64,000 nt of DNA from Phorcus lineatus (Eukaryota > Mollusca > Gastropoda > Trochida > Trochidae), in NCBI GenBank assembly GCA_921293015.1, contig OV121087.1, forward strand, positions 12,784,501 through 12,848,500, read 5' to 3'. Below, in pieces: positions 21,790-57,430 of the stretch (positions are counted from its first letter, which is position 1; each line of letters begins with the position of its first letter). Below the pieces are notes generated by a model that was not told the origin of the DNA, made no database searches, and worked only from the letters and a program-made list of their open reading frames with translations. Both the position numbers and the translations under genes were made by a program.

Positions 21790-22141
21790 TCGACTATAAA
21801 AAGGACACGAGATACAAAAAATATTCTAATAACAATGAGAAAATCATGTGTAAAGGATTGACCTCAAGAGACCTTAAGAGACTTCCATCACCAACAGGGG
21901 GCAATGTTCCCATTACCTTACTTCTCTGTGAAACCCTCGGTGACTTTACATATACAGTACTTACATTTTTACTTGATCGGTGTCTGTGATACATGGCCGA
22001 GCAGCCAAATGCTTGTCATAAGCTTTATTCACAACATGATTATGTCAATCATTTGATAAGCTTTGTTGCTAAATAAAGGACCCTTGATAAATCAATTGCC
22101 GACATTGTAAAAGTATCAGTTAAAATGTGAGTTATGTTTAA

Positions 22142-22468
22142 AGGGACAGAAGCACAATTTTTAGAAGATTTATTTCTTCAACTTTTAATCAATAACCACT
22201 GCTACATGCAAAATATGTTATCTTCAGAGAGTCAGATCATCGTATTACTCAACCCGGTCATCTGTAGTCGTAGGGGAAATAATGAAGTATCATGCAAAAA
22301 CCATTAGCGGCAAATTTTGTGTGAACATCTTTTCATCATTTGAGGCAAGAAAATTGTTTCGTATAGCTTTATCGATAATAGTACGTTTGTTTTAAAACTG
22401 TTTCTTGTGATTAAAAAACGTGTTTTGTTCGATCACTTCATTTGTCCAAAAAAAATGCTACCGCCCCT
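22142..22468. mobile_element. TTAA-flanked non-autonomous element (327 bp)
   Basis: TTAA lies immediately outside both ends (22138-22141 and 22469-22472). The ends are inverted repeats: AGGGACAGAAGCACAATTTT on the left, and AGGGGCGGTAGCATTTTTTT as the reverse complement of the right. The paralogous site in unit 1 (about 30985-31015) is empty and reads TTATGTTTA straight into AAAATTAACGCCATG, as expected before insertion. TTAA targets are typical of the piggyBac and Kolobok superfamilies; these ends lack the piggyBac-like CCYT start. No open frame inside. Confidence 0.85.
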
Positions 22469-23109
22469 TTAACATCAAAATTAACCCCATGTAACTGTGT
22501 AGGAGATGCTACCGTTAGTACCGCGGACTCCCAATCTGTATACATGCATGCAGAGCGACTTCGGATGACATAACACACTGAAACTCATCAGTGCATTATT
22601 TCAATAAATACAGACGTAGGTAAAGAAACCGATAATGAAAAAACTAATTTCTTATATAAGTGACAATTCCTTTTAGTTCCAGACCAGATGAATCAAGAAA
22701 GCGGATTGCACTGAGTATCAATATGTTCCCGACTATTATGGGTCGATCAATGTAGCGATATACACAGATCTCCAGACAGAGGAGATCCGTCTCCCAGACT
22801 GTGCATCACACTTGTATGTCAACACATCTCTCGAACATTTCGATGAATAGGTGTTGTTGGTGTTGACATTCTCCAAACATCTTTTATAAGAATCATTAAC
22901 TTTCTCTTATACCACATCGTTCTTGAACTTGATATTATCATAACAAGATTATAGCAAATATTGTATTTGCTCTTGATTTTTATATCACCCTTTAAAGCTC
23001 AAAAAGTATAATCGAGTACTCTGCAGCGGTTCTAGACGGTAAATGCGGATTAACATAATTAAATAAACATAACGAGTATTGCAGGGCTTATTTCATTTTG
23101 ATTGTTTGG

Positions 23110-23790
23110 TACCGTGACCTCGTATACACGTTCCACCTTGGAAACGTTCGATTTGAAGCAGCTCTAAAATATCAGTAGTTTTCTGACTCTCATGGCCGAC
23201 CGTCGTGAAAGGAGCGAGTTAGTTTGAAAGTGTCGGGCGCACAGAACATGCAGGCATCACTGCATAACGCACTGGTTGATTTGAATATGAATGAATATGA
23301 ATGAAGAGTCGGTGATGACCTCGACTGATATGTGTATAGATTTCTGTTTCGACATTCCAATCTCCAGCTCGCTGATGGACAACCCCGCTGCGAGTGAGTG
23401 AACCGACAGGCCGTTAGCAAGCCTTTTGATTTGTCACGATTTTTTCTCGGCACCAACGTTTCATTTGTAGGAGATCTTACTCTTGTTCCAGCAGTGTGAT
23501 TATAAGATATGACTTTAATAAATGGGAAGATACACTGAGCGTGTAAAGGTAGTGTTCAACAAACCAGCGTAGCGTAGTCTTTGTTTATAATGGGACAAGG
23601 GAGATAACTCTTGACAATACGTCGTCTCTCGTTACTAGGGTTGCGCGTGACCCAGTTGTTAGGTAAATAGAAAAATATACCTACGGCACGTGACCGCTTT
23701 TGGCCAATGAGTGTCTGACATTGTCGAGATAATAAAAAACAATGTTACCTCTTGCCAAGACCATGTCAAGTGTTAATACTTAACACCGAT
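23110..23790. other. Unit-specific insertion, less AT-rich, with an 88-codon frame
   Basis: Homology with unit 1 stops near 23105 (unit 1 about 31670) and resumes near 23795 at CTAATTTCGCA (unit 1 about 31744). About 0.65 kb is therefore extra here, and its base composition is clearly less AT-rich. It contains an unrecognised 88-codon minus frame (23190-23456) with no domain I know, the gastropod/bivalve-type motif AAGGGAGATAACTC (23597-23610), CACGTGAC (23687-23694) and TGGCCAATGAG (CCAAT, 23701-23711). No terminal inverted repeats were found. It could be a composite repeat or a promoter or 5' exon fragment moved with other DNA. Confidence 0.5.
23687..23711. promoter_or_regulatory. E-box plus CCAAT box pair (weak)
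   Basis: CACGTGAC and GGCCAATGAG lie 6 bp apart inside the insertion described above. The pairing is promoter-like, but no transcript or gene is evident on either side. Confidence 0.2.
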
Positions 23791-26444
23791 ATGATCTAAT
23801 TTCGCAAGTTTCCCTACTACATAAAGAAGTCTTAATTTTCGGATTTAGTTTGTGTTAAATACAGGACATTCATTGTAAATATAAAATCAAAATTCCTACC
23901 TTATGCCTTAACAATCTGTCTTAACACACATTTCTAACTGTATTAAGTATTAAATAAAAAGATTGTCGTGGAATGTGTAACATTCAATTTCCCTTTCGAG
24001 AGACCCTTCTATTTCTATAAGAAAACGTGCTGCAGTGGTTTTAGCATCATGAAGAAAATGGAATGCTTTTTGCTTTTAAAAAGATTTCAAATTAGCATAG
24101 CAGTACAATAAAAGCCGATTAGGCTGACTTCACGAGTGAACACTATAATCTGCTTTGCAACTGTCCCCACTGCCAAGTTTACATAAAAGGTGACAACGAA
24201 CTTGACATTCAAGTTCCTTAAGATGCGAGCCTTTTATAACCGAATCTTGCTAACTTGTCAGGAAAGAATTAGACTCGACGTGCCAGTTCAGACCTTCGAC
24301 AATGATTTTGTAACCCAGATAGGACATGTGTTCGAGGCGTAGATATAATTTCAAAGTTTTATTTATTCAACTTCAAATCCAAATTAGACAATATGTTGAC
24401 AGCTTACAATATGCACTTGAACTGTGATAATGTTGAACAGTTTTTTTTATGTTCTGCATGGTCTTATATAACTATTATGATTCGATTTGCCTATAGAACA
24501 AAACTTTAAGGACCTCATGTTAATTTTTCTTGCAACTTCCATTTGTCGATATTCATATTCCCACGATACTTCGAAAATTAAGAAATTTTGCCAAAATGAC
24601 ACTAATGAGGGTCGATTTCTTATTCTGATCAATTAAATTTTTTTAATTTCTTTTCAGGGTTGTGCAGATTCCAACAGAACTAGCAATGCTAATATATGGC
24701 ATGTTTGCTACAAAATATATGATAGAATATTTCTATATTCTTATCAGCTAACATTAAAATGCGGTGCATTCAACAAACTTGTATCATTGAACTACGAGAT
24801 CTACGTGTCTTTTGTAGAAGTCAGCATTGGAACTCATGAGTTGATACATGTACCAACTACGTAACTATTACTTGAATATAAACCAATGTCTGACAGTTGT
24901 TATGTAAGGTGTCTTATTTTCTCGTTTTATGTAGCCCAAACCTAAAAGGCACGGTGCAGCCAAGGCGTAGATACATACTTTTACAATGTATTTACAATAT
25001 TACCTTGAGGAGTTATTGTTCAGTTTCATAGATAAAGCAAATAACTAATTTCAGCTCTTAATGTTTAGGTAAATTGTGATAAAATGGTTGAATATGAAAA
25101 GTGTTTATCACGTTATATAAATTTTTATGTCCTTATTGAAAGCAAGAGACGGAGAGATTATTGAGGGTATGAGGTTAACAGTTTGTTTGTTTATTTGTTT
25201 GTTATTCATGCCTGATGTTTTTATATTATCCTTTAAGATTATTTGTTGTCATCTGTACGTGAATTCTTGCAGTTAAAAATAACATCCACGCATTGTGATT
25301 GAAATTAGGAAATTAGGAGGTTTAATTTAATGATTCGAAAATAGTTTTCACAAAAATCTGTTGAGATTTCTGTGTCTTGTACATATTGTAGCAGATATCA
25401 CATTTAGGAAAATGCTGAAGATCAATATTATTGCTTTGGCATGTGTATCAAATACAGGTGACAGATGGTAATGCTTAATTTGAATTTTTGCAGGCAAACA
25501 ATAATCCTTAGAAAGTCATTTTGATCAAAAAGTTGTATTCGGATTTATTTGTATTTGTTGAGCCTGTAATGCAAAGATGATAAAGCGATTTCATTTTCAA
25601 TTTGACTTGAAGTAATCTTATTTGTAAGTGTGATATTCAAAGTTAACAGACATTTCCACTAAAATTGCTCCTTCTAAAATGTGAGACATATTGAATATCG
25701 TTTTTAAAGGTTTTGTTTTTAATGTGTCTTCATGTTCATTTTGATTTTGTCTGAAATGAAATATATAAATGTCATCACTGATATGTTGGAACGCTTCAAT
25801 AATATTTGCACATTCATCACAAGTGTCTGTTATCAAAAGGATAAATAAATTCGTGATAGTATTATAAGCAAAGTCATACAGGCAGAGTTATAGAAGGATT
25901 TACACATCGTCTGTAAAACATATTACACTAGGGGAATTCGATAAACATTTGCAACTCAACTTTAGTCACAACCTACAGTATTATAAACACAAGCATTTTT
26001 AAGTTTTCATACTTCAACTTTTGCAATATCCTATCGCAAAAAGTACCTGTGTTTTTATTACTTATATCTACGTATATATATAGCGAAATAGATCACGAAA
26101 GGATGTCACATTTAAAATTAAATGAATTTCAGTAGAATAAGCAGTTAACAATAATACTAGTACACGATACGTACAAGTACACTCTTCTGGATATATCAAA
26201 TATATCCCATGATATAAAATTAACAATTTCGTTTTAAAATTGCACAAAATATAACCAAAAACCTTGACTTTACTGAAAGTTGAAGTGTCAACTCGCCAAG
26301 TGAAAATAGCACAGACATGTTACAAGACCGAAACCAGTCACTGAATTATATTTCTTTACAAAACGAGCCAGTTGTGCATTGCTCACTGTTCTTATCGATG
26401 TTATTTAGCTAAGAGACCCTGGAAAAATAAGAATATGAAATGTA

Positions 26445-26502
26445 CCAATATATTGCAATACGCATTGCAATACGCCTCTCTATATCGCAATATATTGCGA
26501 TA
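26445..26502. repeat. Short palindromic and tandem patch
   Basis: ATTGCAATACGC occurs twice in a row (26452-26475), followed by a perfect 20-bp palindrome TATCGCAATATATTGCGATA (26483-26502). Similar 'TATCGCAATATATTGC' words are known to me from dispersed repeats in fish and invertebrates, so this may be the residue of a mobile element. Confidence 0.6.
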
Positions 26503-26709
26503 CGGAAATGAGTAGCGATACCCATCCTTATCAATTAGTTCAAGAACTATCATTCTCTAGTTGAATGATGTGAGCTATCTTATGAAGGAACGTGTTGAAA
26601 TTATTTGTCACTAGTAACAATAAAAATATTTTAATCGATGTGTTTCAAAATGATTAGATCATCAACAATTATATTATAATATTACCACTTTACTTATGTT
26701 ATATTCTGC

Positions 26710-29700
26710 GATTTATCCATCTACCCTTCTTAATATAACACAATCTACTTGATTATGGAAGAATAGGAGGTTACAAATAATCACAGATTTAGTTGACCAA
26801 GTGTTAGAAGGAAATACAGACGTTCGGCTTCATTCAAATGAGCCAACCTCACCGCAGAACTAACTTCTTGAACAATTTCCATTACAGAGCATTATTACAT
26901 GTCATGGTGTTATCACAGCTACATTAATGTCATTATCAAGTGGGGAATTTTGTCGATGTGGCCATTAACCGACATCAGACATATTTGCCCTAATGTAACA
27001 TCCAAACTCGTTTCCTCTGTATTTGCCTTTGTCTAACAGTGTTTTTTAGTTGTAACTTAGAACTTCTTGTGGCCTTTAATGACTAGATTACTGCAGTCAA
27101 TGGTCTATTATATCAAAGGTCACTTTCCTATATAAGACAATAGATGTGTCACGCAACACTTTTTATCTCTCCAATTTAACGTTATTGATTAATGTTACAC
27201 ACACTACTGAATAACTGAAAGGATAAAGATATGTCTAATTTTTCAAATATAAAACACTGCTTTTATGTCTTCTAAATTTCATCAATAAAACCTTTAGTGT
27301 AGTAAATATGAGTTCATTGATATAGGTATTAACTTCAAAGATTTTAAAAATTGATAAACCCTGTTTTTCTTTTTTAATGACCGATCCTGATGAACAATAC
27401 AGAACTAAAGAGGCATCATATGAAAGTTACATTTGATTATGAAATTGCTAAAAAAAAATTTATATACATTTCAAGGAAGATTGGTTTTGTCTGGAGAATC
27501 AATATATAAAAGGAACATTATACTACCAGCATGCAAGACAGTCAGAAATCAAAGGTAAAAATTTCAAAAATTATAAAAACATTCAGGGTTTTCTCCTTAA
27601 GGATCAATTAATCAATGTTTGGAACAGGAATTAATTGTTCTTGCCTTTCATAAAGAAATATGATACTGTTGATTCTTCTCTTTCCTTCTCTAAATAAATT
27701 CATATGACATATATTTTTAGGTGTGGTTGTGTTATTTCCGTATACTGAAATGAATTTCTTTAACAAATTTTATTCCTCATTCTTTTAACATTTCATCTTT
27801 TGATGGTTTTTGCTGATACTATTTACAATGTTATTTTTTGTTTCAGGGTAGAGAAGTAGAAACATAGAGAATTTGATATTGAAAAGAAACCATTTTATTT
27901 ATATATTGATATCCTGTCGTGGTTGTGATTTTTCTGAAAACTGAATTGCATCTCTTTAACAAAAGGTATCCTTCACACTTTTTGAATTTTCCGCTTAATG
28001 ATTTTTTTGGGTTATCAGATGATGTTTATTCAAATATCAGGCCCAAATATAACAGTTTTTCAATTACCTAGTTATGATAAGAGAAACTCATTGCATTCCT
28101 ACACTAAGTCAGTAGCTTTCAAAGACACTAAAACAAACAGGTTGTTGACTTATCTTTCCTGAAAAGAACTTAATAGGCCTTGACATAGCTTTTAAAGACA
28201 CTAAAACAAACAGGTTGTTGACTTATCTTTCTTGAAAAGAACTTAATAGACCTTGACATGTATTTGAAAGATAGTAATTTTCATGTCTTAGCATTTATTT
28301 TTCACTGACTGACAAAAGTCATAATACACCTTTTCAATATAACCCGAGCTCTAGTTTAGTTCTATAAATATTTGCCCGTAAAATCACTTTTTTTGGTGTA
28401 AAGTCGTTACATAGAAAAGTATAATCGTCTTTTGAAATATCAACAGCAAGATATAGAAATGACTAAAGATCATTACATCACTTTCTCATTGTCAGGAAAT
28501 TCTCTAGACTGAAGATGTAATTTCCAATCATTGACAGCAATTATCGAAGTCTTATATTGAAAAGTGGTCATGGTGTGTAGATGGTTTCGAAAACAAGATA
28601 CCTCCGTTTTGGAATGATTTATTTCTAACATACCACATCCTACTTCAACCACAATAGAGGATATGATTTTACAATTAAGGATAAGTGCGAATTTTGCAAT
28701 CTTGCACAAGACATGAGTCACAGAAAAGCACCTTGACATGGCAGAATACATTTGAACTGTTATACATTGTTATGCTGAAGATAACATTGAATAAAAATTT
28801 AGTTTTCTATGTGAATATTCAATAGGTTAAATAACAAAGCTAAGTAACGAATAATCAACAGTCAATTTTGATTTTGGTTGGTTCGACACAATATTCACTT
28901 CAATACACAATACAAACACATGTTACTATTGTAAAGTGTAATATTCTTCGTCCAAATTTTCTTGATCACCAAACCTGTGATTGTGTCATTAAGATGCAAA
29001 CCGAACACTTTTAATATTTCAACATTATTATTTGCAGTTGATTAACTAAAAATATGAGTGATAATAATGCAATTAGCAACTTTAATTGAAATGTCATTAT
29101 GAATAATGGATGACGTAAGGAGCTATTTTTATCATTGACGAATGAAATGTTAGACCTACATTTCACATGTTTAGTTGAATACTGGCTCAGAAAAGACGTT
29201 GTTTACCTGTAGCTACAACTAGAAAAGACAGTTTAAAGTTGATAATAATATAGACATTTTACGGGCGGTTTAAGTTTTTCTTAAGCCGCATAGTGCTTTT
29301 TTAACTTGTCACACTCCTATCTCATAGGTTGCACATACACGAACATAAATTTATCATTCTTTGTACATTTACCTTATTTATATTTCCTACACTACAAATT
29401 CATATCATATTATAATGAATTATCACTCATGAGACTCTACTCTTCTACTACGAATATTGAAAAAATGCGATCTTTCTAAAAGTGTTCACTTCAGAAATTG
29501 TATATTAATGACATTACACAGAATACACATCCTGACTTCATTCCTCAAGACTGTAATATGCTTTCCAACTGTCCAAACTGTCATGTTTGATTAAAAGTGA
29601 CAGTGCAGACCTTCAAATTCCTTAAGATGCATTTACAGATTGTCCACGATCTGGAACTTGTCGGAACATAATGTTAAGAAAAGTCTGAGACAGTGATTAT

Positions 29701-32700
29701 TCAATCCTAATGTCTGTTTCCCCACGCTAATGGGATGTCTGTAACTCTCTTAAACATCATTTATCCGACCATGCTGACAGTTACAAAGCATGTTCTATTT
29801 ATGAGAATAAATCATAAAAAATCAGGCATTTTGTGTGGTCACATTGACATACAACTTTACAACAAAGAATAAAACTCTTAATTTATGAAAACAAGTCAAC
29901 AAATGAGTATTTAGTGTCATGTTTTGGTAAGCTATGTTTACGACATATATGCGTGTCCTGATTTTGCTTTAAGTAAACTTGTATTTGTCAATTCCAGTTA
30001 ATACTGATGATACGTCCATTATAAAAGATGTACTAAATTGTCTGTGTAAATGTTTTTGAGATCCTACAATAAAGCCATAATTTATATCTGCAAACATGAA
30101 AACAACAGCTGTTATTATAATTTTGTTTTTGTTTCAAGATGTTAGTGATGAGAAAATTTCAATTATCTGAAATGATTACTTTATAATTACAAGTAATTTT
30201 ATGGGAAGGAATTATAACAAATATATCAAATGTTTATAACAAATCTCAAACCAATCGACTAATTTCTTTAAAAAATCACCTTTATTTTCACTAAAGTTAG
30301 GAAGATTGTGTTTCAAATTATCAATGAGCATTACAGGTTCATAAGGATTAGGTAAAAATATTTGTAATTGTAGGCTAGTGAAACATTTCCAAGTTGACTA
30401 TTTTGACAAAATAGTATATGATTATGTCGTATGAGGTATAAATTGTGTAGTTATAATATAACTTGGTCACATAAAAATCCCACAGCTAAGAAGGGTATGA
30501 GCGTAGACAACCTATCAGCATTGACACAAAAGAATTTGCTATAGAAATACAATATTCATTCTTGTGCCCTAGATTCTGTTTACTAAGAAGGGTTGGTGAA
30601 GGATTGACCTCATTACAGACACATATCACTAACAGTTATTCATGTTCTCATTACCACGTTTGGCTGAGAAATCATCAGAAATTTTAAATACTCACATATA
30701 CTATGATAGTGTTTCATGGCTCAGGAGCCAAAAACTTAATTTAAGCCTAAGACACAACACGATTTATGTATACCCTTTGTTAACAAAGCTTGTTGCAGTT
30801 AATATAACTAAATGAATTGAAGAATCGTTAAAAAACCACTTTACAATATTCTGTGAGATTGTGGTTTAAGTACCATTTATGCACTCGTGACTGGTAGTGT
30901 CTTAAACCCGGTATGTTTTTTTTTAAAAGTTTATGATTAAATTAAAACAATTCAAATGTTATGGACGTGTAATGGAAAATATTGACTTATGTTTATCATG
31001 AAAATTAACGCCATGTGTCAGTATATATAATCAGAAAATATTACCGTTAATACTGCGGATAGCGGTACTCTACATAGTATATTAATAAGCATGCTTGGCA
31101 TCGTTGGAATGAAATATCACAAATAATCGCCTTCTCAGTCAATGTATTATGTCAGTGAATGACAAATAAACAAATAACCGGAAATGCAAAAAATTAGTTT
31201 TTTTATGTACTGCAAGTTAAGACGATATAAATCATGTGGGTTGCAGTGAGAATCAATATTTTGGCAACCATGATTGGTCAATTTAAGTCGTATATACACA
31301 TAACACCAGACAGATCTCATGGAATAGTGTGGGTATCAGAGAAAGTCCTTCTCTAATACTGCGTATCAAACTAAGAGGTCATCACACATCTCTCGAGCAT
31401 TGTGATGGATAGCACAGTTGTTCACATTCTCCAAATATTGGAAAACCTTGCCTCTGTCATTTAGCACATTGTTGATGACTCATATATCCTTCTAACACGT
31501 TTATGGCATATATTATATTTGCTTCACCTTTTTACCAACCCACAACGTAATCTTGATCACTGCAAAGGAGAGTTTATGTGAAATGATGAAAAACATAATT
31601 AACTCTGATGGTAGAATATTCAAATGCTTTGTTAATTCGAAATTAGGACTTAAAGAAACTTGCTATCACGTACATTTATTGAGATGAGTCTCATATATGT
31701 TAATCAAAAGGGAAAGAGTTACAATAATTACTACAAGAATCTCCTAATTTCGCATGCGTCCCAAATGAAAAATGTTGTACAATGTAGTATATTCATTACA
31801 AATTGAAAATGAATTCAATTTTTGTTAATTGGAATCAATACACTGTAGCACGATTGTTTCAATCGTTACAATTCACAATTTCAAGTTTAGATATTTGTGA
31901 ATTAAACATTTCTTCAGAGAAGACATAGTATACAGTGTCACAAAAACTACATGTAGGCATTTTAGTGTGAACACATTTGTGCATACCTTAACTAAACTTG
32001 AAACATCGAAATAAGAAATTATTGTATTGATTGAAGAGATAGTCTTTAAATCTTTAACATTTAATTTCTTTTTCACGAGACCCTCCTATTTTTCTAAGAA
32101 AGCATGCTGCAGTTTTTTAAACAAGATTTCAAAATAGCATTGCTGTACAATAAAAGCCCATTAGGCTGACTTCACTGGTGAACACTATAATCTTCTTTGC
32201 AATTGTCCACACTGACACTTATATTAAAGGCGACAACAAACTTGACATTCAAGTTCTTAAGATGCATCCTTTTTTATCCGAATCTCTCTGACTTGCCAGG
32301 AAAGAATTAGACTCGACATGATTATCTCATCCCATTAGAACAGGTGGATATAATTCCAATGTTTTCTTCATTCTACATGTCACCCAAATTAGACAATATT
32401 GACACATATACACATATATATAACGCATATTACATTCGACATTATAGTTTTTTTGTTAGATAGTTTTTGATAGTTTGCATGGTACTTCTTTGGTTTTCTC
32501 AATATTTAATCTCTATAAAATTACAAATTTTAAACTAACTTCAGGCCAAATTCGGATTTATATACGGTAGTATAAAGAGACTGTCTCAATGTTTTATTGG
32601 TCATCGAGACGGGGCATCGACACGTAACTCATCTTTCTCAAAATAGTTTTCTCACAAACGTTCTGTGCCCTTTAGAAAGTACAGTCAATATCAAGAAGTC

Positions 32701-33550
32701 CATGAAGATAAACATGTATCACTTTTGCAGGTGTCTCGAAATCAGTGATAATGGCATTTTAATTCATATTGCTTTTATTTTTGATTTTAAAAAAATATAT
32801 AGATAAATTGTACTATTATACATGTAGCATTCATCCGTATCTTATCATATCTTATCCAAAGATAATAAAAGTTCACCATGATATAGTGATGTATCCCGAT
32901 TGAAGGTTAGACGGAATTCTGAAAATTTTTATTTTTCAAAAAGCTTCAAAAAGCTTTCTGAAATCAATAATTTGCATCCACTCAAAAAGGCCTTCATTGC
33001 ACAACATTGGTCCACAAAGTCAGTTAATCTAAGTATATATCTCCGATCCAGGCAACATTTTTAATCTGTTTGACTTAACCCTAAAGAAACTATTTTGTTA
33101 AGATTTCAAGAGACGGTTTGTTGCTATATATTATGCTCGTCTACAAATTGAGAAAGCCGTTAATCAGTCAAAAATTGATCATTGTAATAAGAACTTGTAT
33201 AAAAGTACATTGGTGATGAAAGTAAGAGTGATACGTATTTGTATTAAAACCATTGTACTATTAAAACGAGGAAAAATTAAAAATATCAATAAGAAACATT
33301 ATATTAAATCCCATTCTAAAATCATTTCCTGTTACATTTGAACCCTGAGATATCAACATGCTGCAAACATTTACAAGAAAGCAGAAAATTGTCTGTATAC
33401 TGGATAATATTACAGGAACATGTTGAACCTTATGTGTCATTAGTAATATTAAAAATAATCATGTTGTAAACACTGTTTTCTTTTAAATAATTAGATGACT
33501 GACAATATTATTAAAATAATTAATCTCCAGTTAGCCTCTATCATTCTGAG
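26710..33550 (+). repeat. Array unit 1 (complete)
   Basis: It holds the full order A, K, Q/L, M, D, N, O, E, F, G, B, C, I and is the best reference unit. It preserves empty target sites for two insertions found in other units: near 30990 (for the 22142 element) and at 29684-29691 (single TCTGAGAC, for the 53840 element). Frames such as 28473-28751 (minus, 92 codons) fall in the conserved Q/L segment but are interrupted in the other units. Confidence 0.8.
28113..28258 (+). repeat. 73-bp tandem duplication inside unit 1
   Basis: Two copies (28113-28185 and 28186-28258) differ at only a handful of positions. Each holds AAAGACACTAAAACAAACAG, GTTGTTGACTTATCTTTC and GAAAAGAACTTAATAG. They are far more alike than the array units themselves, so the duplication is recent. 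Confidence 0.9.
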
Positions 33551-39500: not shown

Positions 39501-41250
39501 TCAGTTTAAGGTTCCGTTTTCAATTTGTTTCAAAATAAATGCTGATATAAACTGTTATGAAATATCTAAAGGTCATTAATGTTTGCCAAGTCAACCAAAT
39601 TTTCTGTTATCATAAGGATGAGTTAAAAGCAGTTAGCGGTAAAAGCAAGGTCTTAACAGCAAAGTTTTAGAATAATATCCAAGTTGTATGTAAAGCATAA
39701 TAAACTAGGTATATACCATGGACATTTGCACACCAACCTCGGTCATAGCATCTGGAATAATTGGAAATATGGTTTTTAACTTTTAAAGTTTTGTAATACC
39801 TCATCGAAAACACTAATTTTGTTTTTGTATTATAAAGAATGTTACATCAGATTAAAAAGCAGTTTATCTTAAATGTTGCTTAAGTTTGCATTTCCATAGA
39901 AAAAACAGTCAACAAAAACAGCAAAACGCAATGATATATATCATTAATTTAGAAATTCATTGTATCTAATGACTTAAGGTAATCGATAATAATTCTTGTA
40001 AAATCAAACTTGCAGGTATGTTGTTGACCATGAATAATAATGAAGTTGCAATGTAATTCATACAGTAGACAGGAGTACAGATGTAGAGTCAGTAACAGTT
40101 AATATTGTACTTAAAATAGGGAAATGGAAATTCAACTGTTTAAAACCAATCAAGCAGTAATTCCAAACCATGCTACTTGCAAGTGTGTAAATATGTAAGC
40201 ACAACTTTGGTAGTCCTGCATGACTACCGGTTCAATACCGATTATAGAGCATGCAGACATGTCGAAGAACCTTTAGTGATATAATACTGACCCATGCTTA
40301 CCCAGTTGCAATTGTAAAACGAGTACAATGAACACACATTGTCTGTACCGAATAGCCCTCGCTTTCCACTTATAACGCATGTTGTGCACACTGATTATTA
40401 GTAACACAAATTTACTGCCAGTTTCGTAGTTCTGGTTCCGTTTCTAGATTATGTTATACATGTAACAAATATTGATAAGAGAAGCAAAAAAGTCCAAGTT
40501 GAAAGTATGCACATGCCAAAAAAAACTTTTAGAAATTGATATTTCTATTTCAATTTTGCTATCGATATAAAACTACACATTCAAACGTGTTAAATTTCTC
40601 AATTGAGGGGGAAATCTTAGTTCATTGCATATGCACGCACTTACAACATGTGAGTGAGTAGGAATACCATACACGAGCAGCACTTGTAAATATGGACTCC
40701 GTTCGATAACCTAGCAAATGCACGGAGATCTTTCGTTGAATGTGTCTTGTAGGCACATACAATCCACTTACCATGTGCGCTGACGGCAAGACTTGGCTTA
40801 CTGGCTACTTACAACTTGCACAAGTGTGCGAGTCAGGTGCTTTGACACATTCGCTCTCTGTCCTTGCCACATCCTCCGAATATTTTTACAAACAAGTGGA
40901 GATCGAGGAATTTAAAAATAAAACGTACGGCCAAAACCACGCACGGTGTTGGTTTCGACCGTGGCTTTATCAACTTTAAAAACCTTGTCAGTATAATTTT
41001 CTGTTACATTTGAACTAAACGAACTTAACTGGTTGCAAACATGACTACGAAAAAGGTTTGAAAACTGTAAGTACACACTTATGATAAAGTTTTAAAACTA
41101 TTAAAAAGGAAAACTTCTATAAATTAAACGATGTATTCAAAATTGATTACCAAGATTGTACAATGATGTTACAATACTTAAAAGTGTGTTTGTAGCTATG
41201 ACTGTGCCGTAGTCTTTATGAATAACATGCATTGCACGGCATTGGAATAT
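33551..41250 (+). repeat. Array unit 2 (complete)
   Basis: It holds A, K, Q/L, M, D, N, O, F, G, B, C, H, I and J in the same order as unit 1, with the extra J segment (about 40620-40880) shared with unit 3. Open frames at 39275-39493 and 40740-40979 lie in segments I and J and are not kept in the paralogues. Confidence 0.8.
34907..35015 (+). repeat. 61-bp tandem duplication inside unit 2
   Basis: ACATTTCTATTCTTAAGAGA...CGGACTTGACATC begins at 34907 and again at 34968, nearly identical apart from the last bases. It sits at the same relative place as the 73-bp duplication of unit 1 and shares its TCTT.AAAAGAACT.AAT...CTTGACAT core. Confidence 0.85.
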
Positions 41251-44200: not shown

Positions 44201-47200
44201 TTCGGGATGTTCTCGTTTAGAATGTCGGACACCTAGACAATTAGTGTCTGAAACATCTGAGTCCTTGACAATTCTGTTTGAAGACAGATCGATTCAGATG
44301 ATGTTAAAATATAATGACCATTTTCCATTAAGTTATCTATCTCATAACAGTTAAGTGTTTCAGATAAGCTTTTTGAGAAAACCGGTTTCATTAATCGATG
44401 GATAATGGTTGTTTTGTCTCTGCGTCTCTGTTTTCAGTATGTCGAACAGGGCTTTCTTGGTCTTATCTTTTTCTTGACCGCATTACCATATACACGTCCG
44501 TACATAAACCTGATTTGAAAAACTGCGTTTAAAACAGAAAACTCGTCAATGTATAAATAAGACCTTTGTTCACTAAAACCACGAGTGAGTAAAATTATGG
44601 TACAATACTGTAAGAATTTGATGCACAAATGAATTGACTTGAAATAAAAACTTTAGTAAAACTGTTTAAAATTCTTTAAGCTAAATTTGCGCAAAATAGT
44701 ATATGGGCGATAAAAGAATAAGACCTTTGTGGTGGGGTCTATCGGTATCATTACACAAAATCATGATTACACGATCTGTGTTGCAAATTCGACGCTATCC
44801 ATACTATGATCAATGGTTCAGACGTTTTACACATTGTTTGTACATATACTGTCTATGCTCATATTCCCTTTTTGGAATGATACAATTAATAATTTTGGAA
44901 TTATGGCCCTTAGAGCTGTCAATTTTCCAATATCATAATGACATGCATGCAGAGTGTCTTGGGATGACCTAACACACAGAGACGCCCTGGCCTTCTCAAC
45001 ACATTTCAGCAAATACAGAAGAAGTTAAATAACCAACAATAAAAGAAATGTTGATACACCAGGGACAATTCCTTTTAGTTCCAGACGAGATGAGTCATGT
45101 AAGCAGCTTGCAGTAAACACAAATATGTTGGCGACCATTAGTGGTCGATTACTGCTATGATATAAACAGAACACCAGACTGATGTGATGGCTTTTTGTGT
45201 GTACTACAGTTGATCCTTCTGTGTATCAAACCTGTATAAACACTTTTCTCGAGCGTTGCGATTGCACGTTTTTTATTCTTCAGGAAAGAATTAGATTCGG
45301 CTTGTCATTTTAGGTCAATGTTGACAGCTTACAGTACATACTTTCAACATGTTTAATAGTTTTTGATAAATTTATTTTGCGTGGTGATATAATGTAATCC
45401 GTCTAAAGTTTTAAAAAACCTGAATCTAACTTCAGTCTACATTCTTTTTGTATTAAATTTGAGGGTCTCAAATAAATTTTGCTTGCAGTTTCAATTTATG
45501 AAAATTCATATCCTATCAAAAGTACTGTAATATGTCTGTTGACAGTGTCCTGGAGGTGATGGTATTGTTGAACTAGTATGCGTTTCTAAAGTTTTCAATA
45601 TTTTGAGGTCCTATATACATATCATCATATGCATACAGAAAAAAACCTAGATGGGTTGATGATAATAATGATAGAAGTACATCTATATTGCACAATTTGC
45701 ATGCTTGTTCAATGTATGTTCTAAGCACACTAAGACAAAAGTAAAAACTTAGGTCCTTTTAAGAAAACAGAACCTGGAATTGTTTTTATTTTCATTACTA
45801 TCATCTTTATTATCATCATTATTAAACATCGTATGAACCATGAAGTTGCCTGCAGAACATAGCTAAATGATATCGGGTAACAATTCACATCCATCCAACT
45901 ATCTTCAACGCGCTTTCTTACTTTCTTATCAGGTATATGATTAAATCATGAATATGAGTAATGACATTTGTTGTCCACAGAGTCAGCTAATGTTGATAAA
46001 TCTTCCTCAGAACCCGGCAAGATTATCACTCTAGCTGACTTAACGGGGCAGATACTTTCTGGTTAAGACTCAAGAGGTAGTCTGTTGGTATCGATTTCAT
46101 GTTATGTAAATATTACTTCAGACGTACATCACATTGCTATTATTGTGTATTTTCATATGTTATCAAATTGCTTTGATGAAAGCAAATTCTAGATATAGTT
46201 TTAGTTTACCTTATTGAAATATATATATATGAGAAATGGCGTTCATCAGTCATATAATTATGTTATGATTCTGATACGAATGTATAGAGGAACTTTGGTC
46301 ATATCGTTGGGAAAGTCACGCAATTTGTAATTTTGAAATACAGTAAGCTTTGTCCTACATCATGATAATATAGTATCGTCTACACCTGCCCGCAAATAGA
46401 AATAGTTTTGAACATCAACCGCATCGATGGATGTTTGTGAAGTCCTGAACACAATTTTGTAAATGATGTTGACCATGGTGTTGATATTAGGGAAGGTAAT
46501 GCTAATATTAAATTAGTTATAGCTAATTATTAATTCTAAGAAACTTAATTCAACTTTTATGTTTTAACTTGATCTTATCACTAGTAACAAAAAGTTGACG
46601 ACACTATATCATTTAAATTGAATTAATCCTGCTTGTAATTTTAATCTGCAAAGTTCCAGACATTTCAAATGTAATTTCTCCTGCTAACATTAAATGTAAT
46701 TGGAATATCTAGTTTAAGGTTTCATATCTAATTGGATTTAGAACTAATTTTGATATAATCTGAAATTAAATATATAAAGGTCATCACTGATATGTTGGAA
46801 CACTTCATTAATATTTGCAAAGTCACCGAAAAAGTTTGTTATCAAGACGATAAATAAGTACCAGTTAGCTTTTAAGCAAATTCTTACAATCGAAGTTTTA
46901 GAATCATTTTCACAACGTGAATAAACCATAAAGTAGTTACATGTATCTCATAAATATTTGCACCCAAACTTTGGTCACAACCTACGCTATTTTAAATGCA
47001 TTTATTTTTTGTTTCAAACTTGATTTTATGCAATAACTCATTGAAAACCGTAAATTTGATTGTGTTTATCTAGTTACTCTGCGGCAGAATAATGTCATAT
47101 CAGATTGAAATGTAGCTGATTTTGATTAGTAGTACAGCCTGAATTTTCATAGAAAAAAATAGTCAACATTGATACCGAAGTGTCAAACCATATTCATTAT

Positions 47201-47710
47201 TGATTCAGGCAATCCATAGCATTTAATGACAGGTAATTAGGAATAATTTATCATATCAAAACGAAACAAATAAACACAAAATATGTTGAAAAGTAAAAAC
47301 AAAGAGTACAAATGTATTGTTGGATACCGTTCATGTTGTACTAAACGGAGAAAGAGGAAAATTTAACTGCTTGTATATCATCTGAGCGGTGGTCTAACCC
47401 GCCATACTTGCAATTGCACGATGTCTACGTTAAAAACATGAGCAGAATTTTGGTATCCGTGCGTAGTGAGTACCAGCAACTACATGAAGATTGTTATTTA
47501 TAAGCACATTGTAAGCATGTACAACTAACTCACCATGTGCGCTTACGGTCGGGCTATGAGTACGGAATACTAACTTACACCTTGCTTAACTGAGCGAGTC
47601 ATGTATCTTAACATGCTCCCTCTCAGTTCTTGCCACATTCCACCCACCTCCCAAGGCAAGCTAGTTTTAGTTTTATGAATGTAATGCATTCAATGGCATT
47701 GGACGATTAT
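41251..47710 (+). repeat. Array unit 3 (complete, segment K decayed)
   Basis: It holds A, Q/L, M, D, N, P, G, B, a C segment reduced to its end (GGAAAGAATTAGATTCG at 45283), I, the H-type minus-strand frame (46744-46929) and J. Segment P (44220-44345) is shared with the array end at 57300. The open frames 44434-44628 and 44703-44972 have no counterpart in the other units. Confidence 0.75.
44254..44300 (+). repeat. Hairpin in segment P, copy 1
   Basis: CATCTGAGTC pairs with GATTCAGATG, with an inner helix AATTCTGT / ACAGAT around a TTGAAG loop. The same hairpin is kept at 57337-57383. The enclosing segment is about 90% identical between the two copies, among the best-conserved stretches in the array. 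Confidence 0.6.
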
Positions 47711-50700
47711 GAGATTTAGAATAACTACAGATTTAGTTGACAAAGTCTTATTACCTAACAAAACAAAACAAAACATTCGGCAACATTGAAGTGAGGGAAA
47801 TTCATCACAAACTAACTTCGTAACGAGTTCCCTTTAAAGAACATCACTACATGTCACGGTGATCTTACACCTAGATTACTGTCATTATCAATTGGAGAGT
47901 CATGACTATGTAGACAATAACGCAATTTCAGACAGATTTCCTCCACTGTAACACCCTATCTCGCTTCCTCTGAAGCTGTCTTTGTCTGAGAGTCGTTTTT
48001 TAATTGCGGCCTTGAAGCTCTTGTTGCTTCCTAATGGCTTGATCACTGTCGAGAATGACTTATGTCATCAAAGGTCGCCTTCCAGCACAGGAAAATTCTT
48101 TTGAATCAAAAATTTTCTTCCATCCAAATTCAGCCTCATCGAGTATTGGCACGCATATGAAATCACAAAGGTATGTTTTACGTCCCAATAATAGAACATA
48201 AATGTTATGACTTTATTTCAAAATAATTATTAATACAAATATGACAGTTGAACATGACAAAACTGACATACAGTTTGTTTAGGATTGCGATTAAATTTCC
48301 CCTGTGTTTCTTTGTTGATGACCAATATGGTTGAATGATATCGAAAAACTAATGTTGAGAAATAACAAAACATTTAAAAGTTACATTTTATTATTAATTT
48401 GCTGAAAAACAAATACAAAGACAATTTAACACAGATTCGTTTTGTCTGAAAATCAACTGTATCAGTTTCAAAAAATTTAAAAACAATCAAAATGTTCTTG
48501 TAATGGATCAATATTAATTATCAATGGTGGAAGACGAATTAGTCGTACATTCAGGTACACGATACTGTTGATTCCTCTTATTCCTTCTCTTGATAACTTG
48601 CGGTTATGTTATTTCCGAAAACTGAAATGCATCTCTTAAACAAAAAGTATTCCTTATTCTTAATAATTTCTTCTGTTGTATGATAATTTTTTGTATATGT
48701 TTCAAGCAAAATAACTTGTAACCAAGTAGATAGATAAAAGAAACCATACTATTTTTATTCAACACATGTATTGATTGTTAAAGAGCCACTGAGTATCTTA
48801 GTGTTTCTAATACAACATTTTTTTCTAAAACGCCTAAAAATAAATCAATTGGTAGATAATTGTTTCAGCTACAACATGATATGTGAGAGATGGTATATAT
48901 ACCACGATAAGTCGGTTTAATTATATTCCCTTATGAGTAGCGCACGCTACTGATTTATGATGTCATTACGCGGATTTTCCTTTCCTGTGTACTACGTAAG
49001 CTCGGGTTTGAGTAATAACAAATAAACACATACAATTTCTTTTCTTCACATATTATAAACACTTGAAATTCGTGAAAAGAAATAACTATAATTTATTTTA
49101 CACAAAAAGGTGACCAAAACTTACAAAACAAAAAAGCATGCCGTTGTTGTTAATTTAATATGAAACATATTCACAGTACATATACAAATTAAAAAGATCC
49201 TTGTTCCGTCGAAGACTGAAAAATTATAATAGATTCAGTTGTCACAAGATGGGTTTATGCTAATTATCTCGCCTCCTCTATGGAAATCTAAAAGTTTATA
49301 AGAGTTAATCCGCCATCATCTTGATCATGATGTATTTAATTGAAAACACCGTACAATGGGCGCGCTCAATATGAATAGTCGAGTAACCTGCCCATATTAA
49401 AACGAATCAAACTCAATGTAAAGCGAGTTTGATTTTCAAATAAATCATATATGTGTTTCGTCGTTTTGACTTTCTTTTTGTCGACCAACTTGTCTACCTT
49501 CTGGTCTATCGTCGTTTTATCCTGCTTCTCTTTTCCGTCCCCATGTGGTTATCTTTGTTTAAAGGATGGGAGCCAACTACGACCACAATGCTTTGCGCAA
49601 TAAAATAATAAGGTCGATTTATTTATAGACACGGGAAACACTTTACTAATTAGTTACATTTCTCGGCTTATTTGGGGTCGAAACAATTGGCTAAAAATTA
49701 TGTAAAGATCTTTCAACGAGATAGATTTTTGGCACTATTTTGTAATTTGTATCAACATACTCTGTGGCCCTTTAAGAATCTAAGTCGTTTATAGGAGTAG
49801 GAAATTAAAACATTATGATTCAGTAGTCCTTCAATAAGAAAGAAATAATAATTAATCATTCTTTCTGTATGTCTATCAATCTATATGTCTGTCAAAAAGT
49901 GACTTGATGACAAATTCTTTTGTCTGATACTGTACATGTTAGCTTCCCCAAATTTCATACACTAAAGTGATTACACATTCCATTCATGATCCCTATAGCT
50001 AGATGTTAATTGGGAGGGTGATTTTGATTGCTGCTGTTTACATGAAAACGTGAATAAGATAGTAAATTTATTACTGTAAGTTTTTCTGGAGCATCTTAAC
50101 ATTAAACATTAGCCAAACGTAGTTACTTTTGAGATTTAAATTTTGGTTTTACCTGTTGGGTTTTCCATGAAGGCATTTTTAAAACAGTGACTGCATGAAA
50201 CATTTTGTCTGCAGTATATCTCCAAACTTTTACAAGACATATACACCAAACTTCATACACATCAAATGTCGTCCCTTTGTGTGACTTTTGAGGGTGAAAC
50301 CAACAAAGGAATGTTGTTCTGCGGTTCCAGTGAAAAACTTATGACTGACGCATGACTTCAAGAAATCAGTGAAAAGAAAGAATGATATGTCCTTGTGATA
50401 TGTCATGAATAGATAAATGTTTTTTTTTATAAGAAAATATATATTTTATGATTCTATATATTTACGATTTTTACTTATTTTTCGAATGCAATACAAAAAA
50501 CTCGATCGAATCGAAACTCGGAAGAAGTCAAAATTTGGCGTCTCTTTAATGTATTTTAATTAAATGACCTACTTAGCATTACTAACCTACATTTGTCGTT
50601 GTGTATGTAATAAGTTATCAAACATTACGTTTAAGTAATCTGTGCGCGTCAATGTCAAGTTTTCGATCACCAATCTCGACTTTCACTGTTTATTTTACCG

Positions 50701-50840
50701 AAATGTTTAGCAATTTGATGCTTATTGGCACAAACAACCACTACATCTTGATCAGATAACACCATTTTTGAAGTTTGCCATAAATTCATAGGACCCGAAA
50801 CAACGAACTCTTTGATCTGTGCCCCTTTAACCTTCATTTT
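47711..50840 (+). repeat. Array unit 4 (truncated)
   Basis: Segments A (47830) and K (48590) are recognisable. After the inserted element at 48782-49771 the expected Q/L to J series is missing. The remainder (49776-50840) resembles a degenerate dispersed repeat with CTATATGTCTGTCAAAAAGT and ATATCTCCAAACTTTTACAA phrases of a type common in molluscs. The minus frame 50667-50855 is unsupported. Confidence 0.6.
48782..49771. mobile_element. TTAA-flanked non-autonomous element (990 bp)
   Basis: TTAA is present at 48778-48781 and 49772-49775. The terminal inverted repeats are AGAGCCACTGAGTATCTTAG on the left and AGGGCCACAGAGTATGTTGA as the reverse complement of the right, with weaker similarity continuing for about 90 bp. 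The ends resemble those of the 327-bp element at 22142 (AGGG start after TTAA). I suggest a Kolobok-like origin, with piggyBac less likely because the CCYT end is absent. The interior has no open frame above 60 codons, so it depends on a partner transposase. Confidence 0.8.
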
Positions 50841-51194
50841 GTGAATTGCTTCCATTAGAGAACATTGCTACATGTCCCGTTCGTATCACACCTAGATTAA
50901 TGGCGTCGTGTCGATGCAAACATTATTGTAACAGGCAGTTTTGGTCAACTCCAACATCCTACCTCGTTTCCTCTGAGTTGTCTTAGGTTATTGTATGCAG
51001 CATAAAACTTGTGGTTTCCTGATGTCTTCATCACTGTGTACAATGGTCTAATATATCAAAGGTCGTCTTCCTCTTTAACAAAATAAGACTCGTTAATCAA
51101 AGGTGTCTCTTCAAGTCAACGTTATTGATTAATGGCACACACTCGCAAATGACTAAAGAATAAAGGTATGTCTGAAGATTTGTTCTAAAGTAAA

Positions 51195-51425
51195 CTTCTA
51201 CCTAGCTTCTTCTGAAGCTGTCGCTGTCTAACATTGAGTTTGTATTTGCGGCTTTGGACTACTTGTGCACTTTGGATTGTTTTACCACTGCGGACAATTC
51301 CTAATTACATAAAAAGTAGCCTTTCAATTCAACAAAACTGTCTTTGTTTAAGTCAGATATATTCCTGGCATTATACATAACTTACACACTTTCCTACATG
51401 ACTGAAGGTTTGTCTGATTTTAAAT
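51195..51425 (+). repeat. Second partial copy of segment A
   Basis: Beginning at CTACCTAGCTTCTTCTGAAG it repeats the second half of segment A directly after the copy at 50853-51177, ending in GACTGAAGG.TTGTCTGA as the others do. It resembles the unit 3 version (41465 onward) more than its neighbour, which suggests unequal exchange between units. Confidence 0.7.
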
Positions 51426-53839
51426 TGAAACATTTCGTCTAACACAATGTCATCATTATAAGCAATGTGACATCATTGATGTAAATGTTAAATCCAATAA
51501 TTAGTCTGTTCATAAAGACAATTTAATTTTCTTCTTTTTTTTTGTTTCTTTGTGTTAAATTTTAAAGGATGTAAACTGTTTAAATTAAAACAAAACAAAC
51601 ATACATGTATATAAGTAACATTACACTATCGAAATGCTGAAAAAAGAATACAAAGACAAGTCAAGGAAATAAATTAAACAGTAAGAAATCAACTGTATAA
51701 GTTTCAAAAAGATAAAAACCTTCTGGTATGAAACAGTAATCAATCGTACTTGCCGTCGATACAAAAATATGATCTTCTCTTCAATTCATGTCGGATAGAT
51801 GTTGTGGACTGGTGTGGTTGTGTTATTTCTGCAAACTAATGGGCATCCCATCAGAAAAAAGGTATTCTTTTTTAATTCCCTCTTAATCATTTTGCTTTAA
51901 TCAAATGTTGTTTATTCATAATTCAGGTAAAAATGTAACAATCAATCTTGACTTTTCTTGCCAATTAGACATCAGTCAGCCCGACATCCACGTGCAGGAC
52001 TTGACATTTCTTTTTTATTGAAAGACAACAAAGACACATTTTAGTGCAACTCCATCACTACTTTTGTTCTGTAAATATTTACCCCTAAAATAATTTTTTT
52101 GTGTGTTTAGTCATGAAATGGCAGAGGACGTCATAACAGAAATGCGTAATCTCCTTCTTTGAAATATCAACAACAACCCATTTCCTTTTCAGCTGACAAT
52201 GATTGGTTGGAGGCGACATCATCGTAGACATACAAATGACTGAAGATCCTTAACATCATTGTCAACGACAGGAACTTATCTAGACTGAATGTGCAAGTTG
52301 CCATAAATGACAACAATCATCTTTGTTACATTGTTATGTGGCCATGGTGAGTAGATGTTTTGAAAACCAGGTCCATTCTTTTTGGGTGGATTTATTTTTA
52401 TCTGATATATAATCGATGTGACAATCACAATTGAGAATACAAGTATGAGACGGGATGTAGCATAGTTTTCATCATTATGTACTATCTTCCAGATGAGCCA
52501 CAGAAGAGAAGATATGTCAAGCACATTGGTGTCAGCAGAATACTTGGATTCACTATCTATAGTTAATTACCCTGACGCAAAAATCAAAAGGCCAGTTAGA
52601 TATAAGTGCCAGTTTAGTTGTCTTATCAGATCCTTTAAATTATTTCAGTGCTCCATTTATTGTGACTCCTATACGATTTGTTTATGCTTTCTTACATGAT
52701 AATATTAAAACATTAATAGGGACAACTTGCATGAAAGTAACTTTCGAGTTAATATGTCTGACCTCACGTACTGTTTAAAAGGACAAGAGTACACACAACG
52801 GAAATAATCGTTAAGAGATGTCAGAAAAACAGATACAAAATTTACAGGAGTCATTTTGTCAACAACAGCAGAAGGATTTTACCATTTCATACATTTTCAA
52901 GCAAACCAGACATCATTTGTTTCGGTGAAAGGTTGTTTCGAACCTGAGATAAAGCTATACTTGTAACTGAATATAATTGTCTTCGACACAATATTTATTT
53001 CACTTGTATTTTCACATATTCCAAACGAATTTTAAAAACATTAACTGTTCTACACGCTCCACATAAAACATGTTGATGTAGGGTAATCCAGTGAGTTTTC
53101 GTTCAGTTGCACATGACATCATTAAATTTATAAAATTCGAACGACGAATGAGTAAAAACTTTTAAGGAATTCAATTAGATTCTGTTAGTGAAATGTCATA
53201 ATGAATAATTGATTCGGCAAGGAGCTGTCAATATTAATCACTTTCAGGAGACTGTCAATTGTCTATGATTTTTTTAATCACGTGATATATGAGACTGAAA
53301 AACTATATTGAGTACGTTAAGATTAACACGGGCTGTATATAAACATTGTCTATATATTCCAAACCAGGAAAGCCGTTATGGAAATAGAAATAGTGAGACA
53401 AGTAAATTTGACTTTTTACAATCAAAGTATTCATTAAGTTGTTTTTGCACTTGTTTAAACTTGTCACATTCATGAACTCAAATGTCATGCATTATATTTT
53501 ATGATATGGTTTGCACATCAAAATTAATTGTACCAACTTCTATATCACAATAGAATCATAAACATGCCATTTATCAGATGCTTTTCCACTAAAAAGGATA
53601 ACGATCTATCTTTCTAAAAACATTTCAATGCAGGAACAACAGTAGGTACTAGTGACCCTTCAAAGAAGAGCTATTAACCTGTGTTTTCCCTGAACTTTTT
53701 AATTTGCTTTTTCTAACTATCGACACTGTTACGTTGAGATCGGGATGTGACAACAACACAGAGATTCAATTTCCTTAAACTGCATTCTCAGTTTGTTTAA
53801 AATCTGGAATTTGTGAACTGAAACATTACAATCTGAGAC

Positions 53840-54470
53840 CACAGGCCCTCGGATCATTAAAAAAAATATATATATTAAAAAAATTAAAACATTGTTTTTG
53901 AGAACACCCCCTGAATAAAATTGTTCCTCTGGTAATAGTATATGGAAAGGCCAGACACTCCATTCGCCCCCACCCGCTTTCTTGACCGAATGCTACAATA
54001 AATACACACGCAATCAAAATAAAATCTATGCAGACATGATGTCAAATGATTTGCCTTTCTACTCCAACTCACTTAAACAAATATATCTTTGGGGTTATTT
54101 AATGAGGACGGCCGAAAGACGATTTCCACGCCCAACTTAATGCTGATGGGACAAATGGCCGCCCGTCACCTTGACCTTACGGGGTGTGTGGCCGCAGCGA
54201 CAGATCTCATTGGTTGCAAGAACGGAGAATTAGAGTTATCTGTTCCTAACTTTGCATTAAACCAATGAGATATGTCGCTGCGGGATTTTATTTTGATTGC
54301 GTGTGTATTTATTGTAGCATTCGGTCAAGAAAGCGGGTGGGGGCGAATGGAGTGTCCGGCCTTTCCATATACTATTACCAGAGGAACAATTTTATTCAGG
54401 GGGTGTTCTCAAAAACAATTTTAAATTTTTTTTTATACATATATATTTTTTAATGATCCGAGGGCCTGTG
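53840..54470. mobile_element. Fold-back MITE, 631 bp, 187-bp inverted repeats, 8-bp target duplication
   Basis: The arms 53840-54026 and 54284-54470 are near-identical inverted repeats starting CACAGGCCCTCGGATCATTA. TCTGAGAC flanks both sides (53832-53839 and 54471-54478). Unit 1 has a single TCTGAGAC at the paralogous site (29684-29691), the empty target. A second, inner inverted repeat of 24 bp (54192-54215 and 54260-54283, one mismatch) abuts the right arm. An 8-bp duplication fits hAT or P superfamilies; the CACAG end fits the P-type CANRG pattern, as I remember it, better than hAT. Frames 53826-54017, 53884-54072 and 54265-54453 are mirror images within the arms, not genes. Confidence 0.92.
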
Positions 54471-54478
54471 TCTGAGAC

Positions 54479-55941: not shown

Positions 55942-56035
55942 ATTGGAGAGGTACTGCTTGTAACATATCCTTACTACCAGGTTAAGGATAATGTTTCCAT
56001 TGTATGTTTTACTGATGCCTGAGGTGTGGTGATAA

Positions 56036-56114
56036 TAGTATAGCACTGCACCCAATCCTTACTACCTGTAGAACAATTATCGAATGCGCTACCCACTGCG
56101 CTATGCCGCCCCCT
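56036..56114 (-). mobile_element. SINE head fragment (minus strand)
   Basis: Read on the minus strand: GGGGCGGCATAGCGCAGTGG, GTAGCGCATTCGAT, then TTGTTCTACAGGTAGT and TTGGGTGCAGTGCTA. These match the head and following region of the SINE at 59776-60090, but the B-box region is deleted. It is the same family in the opposite orientation. Confidence 0.8.
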
Positions 56115-56600
56115 ATTTCACTGTAAACTGAAATTTGACGCCGATTGAATTTATAGAAAATTATATATTGTCACACTGATAGTGTTATGAATCATAAACA
56201 TTGTGTCATAAACCAAGATACGAACACAGATTCATAGATTTATGTGAAAATAACTATTTAGCAGTCCATATTTGCATGTCTGATAAGGCTTTTGTTCAGC
56301 CTTCACAAAAGTAAGAATTATTTCAATTATATCCTCTTTGAGCGAAATCAAATAGATAAACAAAATCATTGTTTATACGGATGTCAGAACGGATGATTTC
56401 AACTTAATAAATTTTCTAATATTATACAAAGAACTGTTTTAATGAGTGTCACAATTGACAATAAACAAAGAGATATTCGAAACGATTTATTACTATAACA
56501 GATTGGATGTTGTCCTACGCTAATTTAACCCTTTGAGATGGGATGAAGACTATTGTAGATACAATACGTTCTTCTTCATTCTTTCATTGGTGCCAGATTA

Positions 56601-57430
56601 AAGAGCAAGATTACATATTATCTAGTCGACGAGTCTTAAATTAAACAGTCGCACAAGAAAGTCAATTTCGTGAAGACTTTCTATTACAGGCATCACTACA
56701 GACACCATTGCCATTACACCTAGATTAATGTCAGCAATATATTGACATGTTGTCCCGTGGATATTAGCAAAATGTCAGTCAAATAATACAGATGTATCAA
56801 CTCATTTTGTTACCTTTAAAAATGTTTAATTTGCAGCGACAGCTTATTTTCAGAACTGTATCACGTTTTCTTACAGGATTAAAGCGATTAATATAAGAAC
56901 AATGTTTACAAATTTACAAAAGACGTTTTTTCAAAATCATCTAAAGATCTCTTTTTGCTCAATACATCACTCCTCATTTCTATAATATAGCTGAGTAAGG
57001 GATGATTTATGCTCTTAAGAAAACATGCTTTGCTTTAGCTAAGATTGGAACATGCGAAATAAAAAAAACAGTGTCTTTTACTACGTGTGTAGTCATGTCG
57101 ACTGGATGACCGTAATCTCTTACTTGGCTTCATGTAAGCATTGTAGAACAAATAACTTTGTTTCTATAAGTTTTAGATAAGGTTATTAGCTTCATCGTTT
57201 ATTGTCACACAGATAACAATCAACACTACATTAGAAATTTTTTCTGAGATTTTATCAGGTGCAACTTTGTATTTTTCTTTCATTTCGGGAGTTTCTCATT
57301 AATTAAGTCTGACACCTAGGCAATTAGTGTCTGAAACATCTGAGTCTTTTTCAATTCTGTTTGAAGACAGATTGATTCAGATGTTGTTAATGATATAATG
57401 GCCATTTTCCATTAAGTTATCTTTGAGCTT
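56601..57430 (+). repeat. Array unit 6 (end fragment)
   Basis: Segment A (56691) is followed after only about 0.6 kb by segment P (57240-57430); in unit 3 these lie 2.9 kb apart. An internal deletion of about 2.3 kb is implied. Recognisable array homology ends near 57430. Confidence 0.7.
57337..57383 (+). repeat. Hairpin in segment P, copy 2
   Basis: Counterpart of 44254-44300. The outer arms CATCTGAGTC / GATTCAGATG and inner arms AATTCTGT / ACAGATT are kept, while the bulge between them differs. Confidence 0.6.

Follow-up and report, generated by a model that had tools for sequence, protein, structure and literature searches.

The 64,000-nt stretch of Phorcus lineatus DNA analysed here (the window) covers positions 12,784,501-12,848,500 of a 52.04-Mb chromosome. 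With a GC content of 0.29-0.39 per 2 kb and a CpG observed/expected ratio of 0.81, it looks like gene-poor DNA. Between ~20.5 and 57.7 kb it holds a head-to-tail array, in which blocks recur in the order A-B-C-D-E-E2-F-G, followed in some units by H; block H forms the end of unit 3 and is present in the last fragment in the window (Table 1). Self-comparison of the whole window by blastn gave 59 matches, 50 of them inside 21-60 kb, and 47 of these 50 are on the same strand and in order. Under stricter settings (E ≤ 1e-6, at least 150 bp), all 38 matches between 20.4 and 58 kb are same-strand and none is opposite, with 80% of the interval covered. The head-to-tail order and parallel offsets proposed in the first-pass annotation are thus borne out. 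The periodicity is indeed on the kilobase scale, but the offsets between neighbouring units, put at 6.5-7.7 kb in that annotation, are mostly ~5.8-8.7 kb, and some are smaller (for example 3.0-3.2 kb between units 4 and 5). Unit boundaries are the analyst's choice; the starts chosen for the first four units are spaced 8.7, 6.4, and 7.9 kb apart.

Block copies were recovered with nine block profiles, none of which matched a single dinucleotide-preserving shuffle of the window at E ≤ 0.5. Repeated units had been correctly recognized from the letters, but their tally had been set at about four full and three partial copies; there are instead three near-complete units, one truncated unit, two fragments, and a stray piece of block A. 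The C profile found no block C in unit 2.

Table 1. Positions of the array units, their blocks, and related elements (window coordinates; positions beyond 64 kb lie in the right flank)
Feature	Position	Strand	Basis or remark
Stray block A fragment, left of unit 1	20486..20661	+	profile match, E 1.8e-9
Unit 1 (U1), near-complete	21850..30580	+	self-comparison and profiles
U1 blocks A-D	A 22440-22870, B 23940-24430, C 25540-26060, D 26853-27244	+	
U1 blocks E-G	E 27400-27900, E2 28330-28660, F 29240-29690, G 29730-30440	+	
Unit 2 (U2), near-complete, without clear C	30581..36960	+	self-comparison and profiles
U2 blocks A, B, D	A 30960-31425, B 32018-32410, D 33665-34047	+	
U2 blocks E-G	E 34275-34710, E2 35031-35400, F 35520-35900, G 35960-36650	+	
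Unit 3 (U3), near-complete	36961..44900	+	self-comparison and profiles
U3 blocks A-D	A 36980-37410, B 37888-38340, C 39340-39880, D 41317-41700	+	
U3 blocks E2, F, H	E2 42040-42420, F 43200-43680, H 44154-44622	+	
Unit 4 (U4), truncated	44901..48780	+	self-comparison and profiles
U4 blocks	A 44900-45270, C 46555-47080, D 47806-48186, E 48340-48745	+	
Unit 5 (U5), partial	50301..53850	+	self-comparison and profiles
U5 blocks D, E	D 50826-51186, second D piece 51176-51418, E 51570-51895	+	
U5 blocks E2, F	E2 52110-52530, F 53385-53845	+	
Unit 6 (U6), fragment	56329..57691	+	self-comparison and profiles
U6 blocks	D 56661-56815, H 57236-57691	+	D by profile match
Dispersed ~95-bp repeat, start of block B	23947..24043	+	genome matches to B
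Module K, inside block B	24091..24317	+	K profile
Other K copies in the window	29502-29716, 32135-32328, 35783-35865, 38038-38258, 43500-43707, 53645-53847		K profile
Right-hand K/B copies	91.2, 101.3, 111.65, 114.6 kb	+	B profile, E ≤ 1e-3
H core, unit 3 copy	44219..44340	+	fold z -2.29; best 60-column window 56/60 against the 57.3-kb copy
H core, last copy in the window	57301..57422	+	fold z -3.72 (minus strand z -3.53)
Out-of-window H relative	71.6 kb	+	profile, E ≤ 1e-3
Out-of-window D relatives	71.3 kb	+	profile, E ≤ 1e-3
	76.5, 83.4, 101.9, 102.85 kb	-	profile, E ≤ 1e-3

The array does not end at 57.43 kb, as first described: D and H recur together as a fragment at 71.3-71.8 kb, and B and D have relatives, in another arrangement, as far as 114.7 kb. 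The array is real and larger than originally reported. When the window was examined together with its flanks, 60 kb to the left and 60 kb to the right (184 kb in all), old duplications were found across much of the region: a cluster of mixed orientation between -60 and -10 kb, a pair in tandem within 1-7 kb, and a further cluster at 76-115 kb; the array is part of this wider cluster. Duplicate coverage is 64% at -60 to -20 kb, 29% at -20 to +20 kb, 43% at 64-104 kb, and 48% at 84-124 kb. Two 40-kb control regions from the same chromosome gave 9% (at 40.00 Mb) and 24% (at 25.00 Mb), all matches in the latter falling in its first 9.6 kb, in a repeat of ~160 bp. No relatives of the array blocks were found in these 80 kb of control sequence at E ≤ 1e-3. 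Set against these two regions of its own chromosome, the cluster is unusual, but it is of a known kind.

Several further repeats were seen in and around the window. An old tandem duplication within positions 1-6942 (1358-1774 with 5291-5714, and 3688-4769 with 5842-6942; 59-66% identity) is separate from the array and is not matched by its block profiles. Matches in the flank from -60 to -20 kb are divided equally between orientations (15 same-strand, 15 opposite), unlike the purely head-to-tail array. A decayed Tc1-like transposon at 17260-18459 (DDE_3, 17.5 bits, below cut-off) has a 92%-identical copy in the flank, at 115.8-116.8 kb. Inside the array, an inverted repeat at 53880-54480, with arms 96% identical over 169 columns, is probably a young foldback or MITE-like element. 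A dispersed element of SINE-like appearance (59828-60092 and 11400-11568) is also found at 70.8, 111.1, and 122.5 kb, with identities of 72-92%. Positions 61063-61316 and 62276-62351 hold a minisatellite whose unit is 32 bp, an 11-bp array, and TTC repeated perfectly 25 times. The repeat in the 25.00-Mb control is an array of a ~158-165 bp unit over 9.5 kb (positions 1-9520).

Genome-wide dispersal of the segments would speak against a local array. In a search of 957.8 Mb in 74 contigs, all matches to block D (four), block H (two), block C (two), and F+G (five) were in the array. Block B is the exception: only six of its 14 matches are in the array, and the other eight all fall within a ~95-bp dispersed stretch at its start, to which a minus-strand profile match at 19977-20071 also corresponds. 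Confinement to the locus thus holds for D, H, C, and F+G but not for this part of B, and in all five cases it applies to copies above ~65% identity, below which these searches miss them. The relatives to the right of the window went unreported by the genome searches, an indication that weak copies elsewhere would also escape them.

The copies are more diverged than first supposed. Identity between units, initially put at 70-90%, is 57-80% by block and unit pair; values of 85-91% are confined to short cores and to individual 100-column windows of B and D. Long array alignments are 67-72% identical, and K80 distances in five alignments of 0.4-2.3 kb are 0.35-0.44. Copies of the mobile elements and inverted repeat in the surrounding 184 kb (Tc1-like, SINE-like, and inverted-repeat arms; five comparisons) differ by only 0.04-0.20, from which it follows that the duplications are older than these insertions, if rates are alike. 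An assembly or haplotype duplication is also made less likely by divergence on this scale.

Conservation had also been described as markedly uneven among segments. Part of this stands: block B is slower and block F faster than the rest, and short cores are better kept, but six of the eight blocks compared (A, C, D, E, E2, and G) fit one common rate in a model with additive effects of unit pair and block (residual deviance 35.1 on 24 df). The estimates for B (+0.42 logit, SE 0.08) and F (-0.27, SE 0.07) come from pairs that share sequences, and their standard errors are too small accordingly. Within blocks, a 60-column identity peak at p < 0.05 was present in seven of 42 pair comparisons and absent in the other 35; four peaks were at the p 0.001 floor (C in U1-U4, F in U1-U3, G in U1-U2, and H). 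The best-kept stretch of block C (25750-25848 against 46759-46857; 56/60, p 0.001) has a frame open in both copies, in which by eye most differences are protein-changing. Of 41 cases, 10 have a changepoint in identity at p ≤ 0.02, as with D in U3 against U4 (88% and then 70% identical); conversion tracts or alignment decay would give such a pattern.

The best explanation, to which we give roughly three chances in four, is an ancient cluster of local, mostly head-to-tail non-coding duplications that is decaying without homogenisation. Unequal exchange or replication-based tandem duplication is the likeliest way in which a segment of ~6-9 kb would have come to be present several times over; K, D, and H, as sub-segments, would have been copied on other scales too, including into the neighbouring cluster at 76-115 kb. 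The copies appear to have been neither homogenised nor removed, decaying instead by substitution, insertion and deletion, and mobile-element insertion, with most of the array sequence presumably drifting neutrally. What carries this reading is the tandem order, the confinement of D, H, C, and F+G to one locus, divergence in excess of that of nearby mobile elements, and the lack of a coding signal. On the other side, the slower B, the four peaks at p 0.001 in C, F, G, and H, and an H alignment fold at z -4.2 hint at selection on parts; judged from the alignments, constraint on B and on the cores in C, F, G, and H is possible.

These same features could be taken to mean that the array is a regulatory or lncRNA domain: K/B, D, and H would serve as cis-regulatory elements or non-coding exons, and selection would preserve their many copies as the intervening DNA decays. 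The first-pass annotation had suggested a duplicated enhancer or lncRNA domain; B and the short cores would fit, but most blocks share one rate, and the suggestion is left looking weak. Module K, common to blocks B and F, is present in at least 11 same-orientation copies over ~90 kb, which would suit such a domain. K was also considered as a slow-evolving element in its own right, a proposal weakened when a clear advantage in identity over the left part of F was seen in only one of six F pairs.

When the block alignments were folded, z was below -2 in 31 of 314 windows and below -3 in 10, of which six are in H and two in D; the alignment of the three H copies gave -4.2. These alignment values are rough, as column shuffles do not preserve dinucleotides. 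Singly, the two copies in the window fold at about -2.3 and -3.7, and the third, at 71.6 kb, at -1.0 on the + strand. Three named helices are paired in 85.7% of 63 cells, with one double change, against 24-46% in slid controls, and the third copy keeps seven of ten main-helix pairs, one through a double change. The pair counts were nonetheless equalled or exceeded in 154 of 500 shuffles. Rfam gave no match at gathering score in the window, the five sub-threshold matches being one tRNA-like and four snoRNA-like, and no tRNA genes were found there. On balance a regulatory or lncRNA domain is rather unlikely. The narrower proposal that K and H, the latter with a possibly structured core of ~120 bp, are functional non-coding modules private to the locus, kept by selection amid kilobases of decay, would likewise be a long shot; if true, it would make this a regulatory or ncRNA domain built in tandem and containing no protein-coding gene.

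Nested copies of non-autonomous mobile elements could conceivably come to resemble a tandem array. The ~95 bp of B that are a dispersed repeat point this way, as does the right-hand cluster, where K and D are in other orders and D is in another orientation. However, no match to D, H, C, or F+G was found beyond the locus in the 958-Mb genome, and a nest of insertions fits poorly with 38 of 38 matches in one orientation and in order. No transposase or reverse-transcriptase domain was found in the scanned units, by a scan that is weak for decayed elements. This explanation is very unlikely.

The remaining alternative, a decayed tandem gene family with very short exons, was likewise among the original proposals. 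It had been stated that no open frame survives between copies. Frames do occur (18 stop-to-stop frames of at least 90 codons in the window, five of them inside the array, with single-copy frames of 90-121 codons), but none shows codon-type conservation. A multi-copy codon test of nine blocks on two strands gave p < 0.05 in none of 18 cases; it detected 46 of 48 exons simulated at lengths of 25-60 codons, so that its demonstrated power applies to exons of at least 25 codons, shorter ones being outside its reach. Adding out-of-window copies gave no signal on either strand for K (11 copies; p 0.96 and 0.75), D (13; 0.12 and 0.18), or H (three; 0.61 and 0.08). Pairwise, p < 0.05 was reached in five of 96 cases in the array. 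There is no lag-3 excess of mismatches in the array, only 11.8% of 2609 gaps are a multiple of three in length, and the best third-position signal was matched by 25 of 400 shuffles. Among matches in the flanks and the rest of the window, by comparison, the pairwise test gave p ≤ 0.05 in 22 of 228 and p ≤ 0.01 in seven; the top three scores in this modest excess, two transposase comparisons and a reverse-transcriptase tail, serve as an internal positive control. A six-frame Pfam search with X at stops (22.3-31.3 and 36.9-46.9 kb) found nothing at curated cut-off, the best score being 15.5 bits against a cut-off of 27; its sensitivity for decayed elements is limited, the Tc1-like element at 17.4 kb scoring 17.5 bits alone, below cut-off, and being missed in long frames.

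Two short frames do look coding by eye. One is the pair 29326-29370 and 35581-35625 (third-position binomial p 0.0014). The other lies in the best-kept stretch of block G (29930-30010 against 36155-36235; 55/60, p 0.001), a 22-codon frame with the same stop in both copies and mostly third-position differences, too short for the tests. Apart from exons under ~25 codons, the tests speak against a gene family, and that origin is hardly credible.

If the array is indeed an ancient non-coding duplication cluster in decay, its interest lies in its persistence: tandem arrays are expected to be homogenised or lost, and here non-coding units are still in order at a K80 of ~0.4. Such a fossil array is an alignment contained within one genome, and neutral decay and selective retention would become separable once the orthologous locus was added.

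No comparable locus was found by keyword among the matches listed from titles and abstract openings in an open-access literature subset, and two short motifs scanned against viral contigs gave no match. Segmental duplications are usually defined as at least 1 kb at at least 90% identity, and the long alignments here, at 67-72%, fall below that figure. Macrosatellites are made up of near-identical, homogenised copies in high number, whereas the array has ~six units, several of them truncated, at 57-80% identity; of the slow macrosatellite first suggested, the kilobase head-to-tail units at one locus are there, but homogeneity and high copy number are absent. Among described systems, the sea urchin Sp185/333 immune gene cluster, with its nested segmental duplications (PMC5103432), is similar, as outlined in that source, in that repeats of different sizes are gathered locally; it is, however, a cluster of genes, and no gene was found in the array. 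In human, families of non-coding elements derived from segmental duplication rather than from transposons are reported to show open chromatin and to have been tested functionally (Weaver and Lowe, 2026, PMC13333887). Non-coding families made by duplication are common to both, but the copies here have diverged to 57-80% identity. With macrosatellites such as D4Z4, as they are summarized in PMC4063668 and PMC3018141, the array shares kilobase units, not satellite-like, laid head to tail at a single locus.
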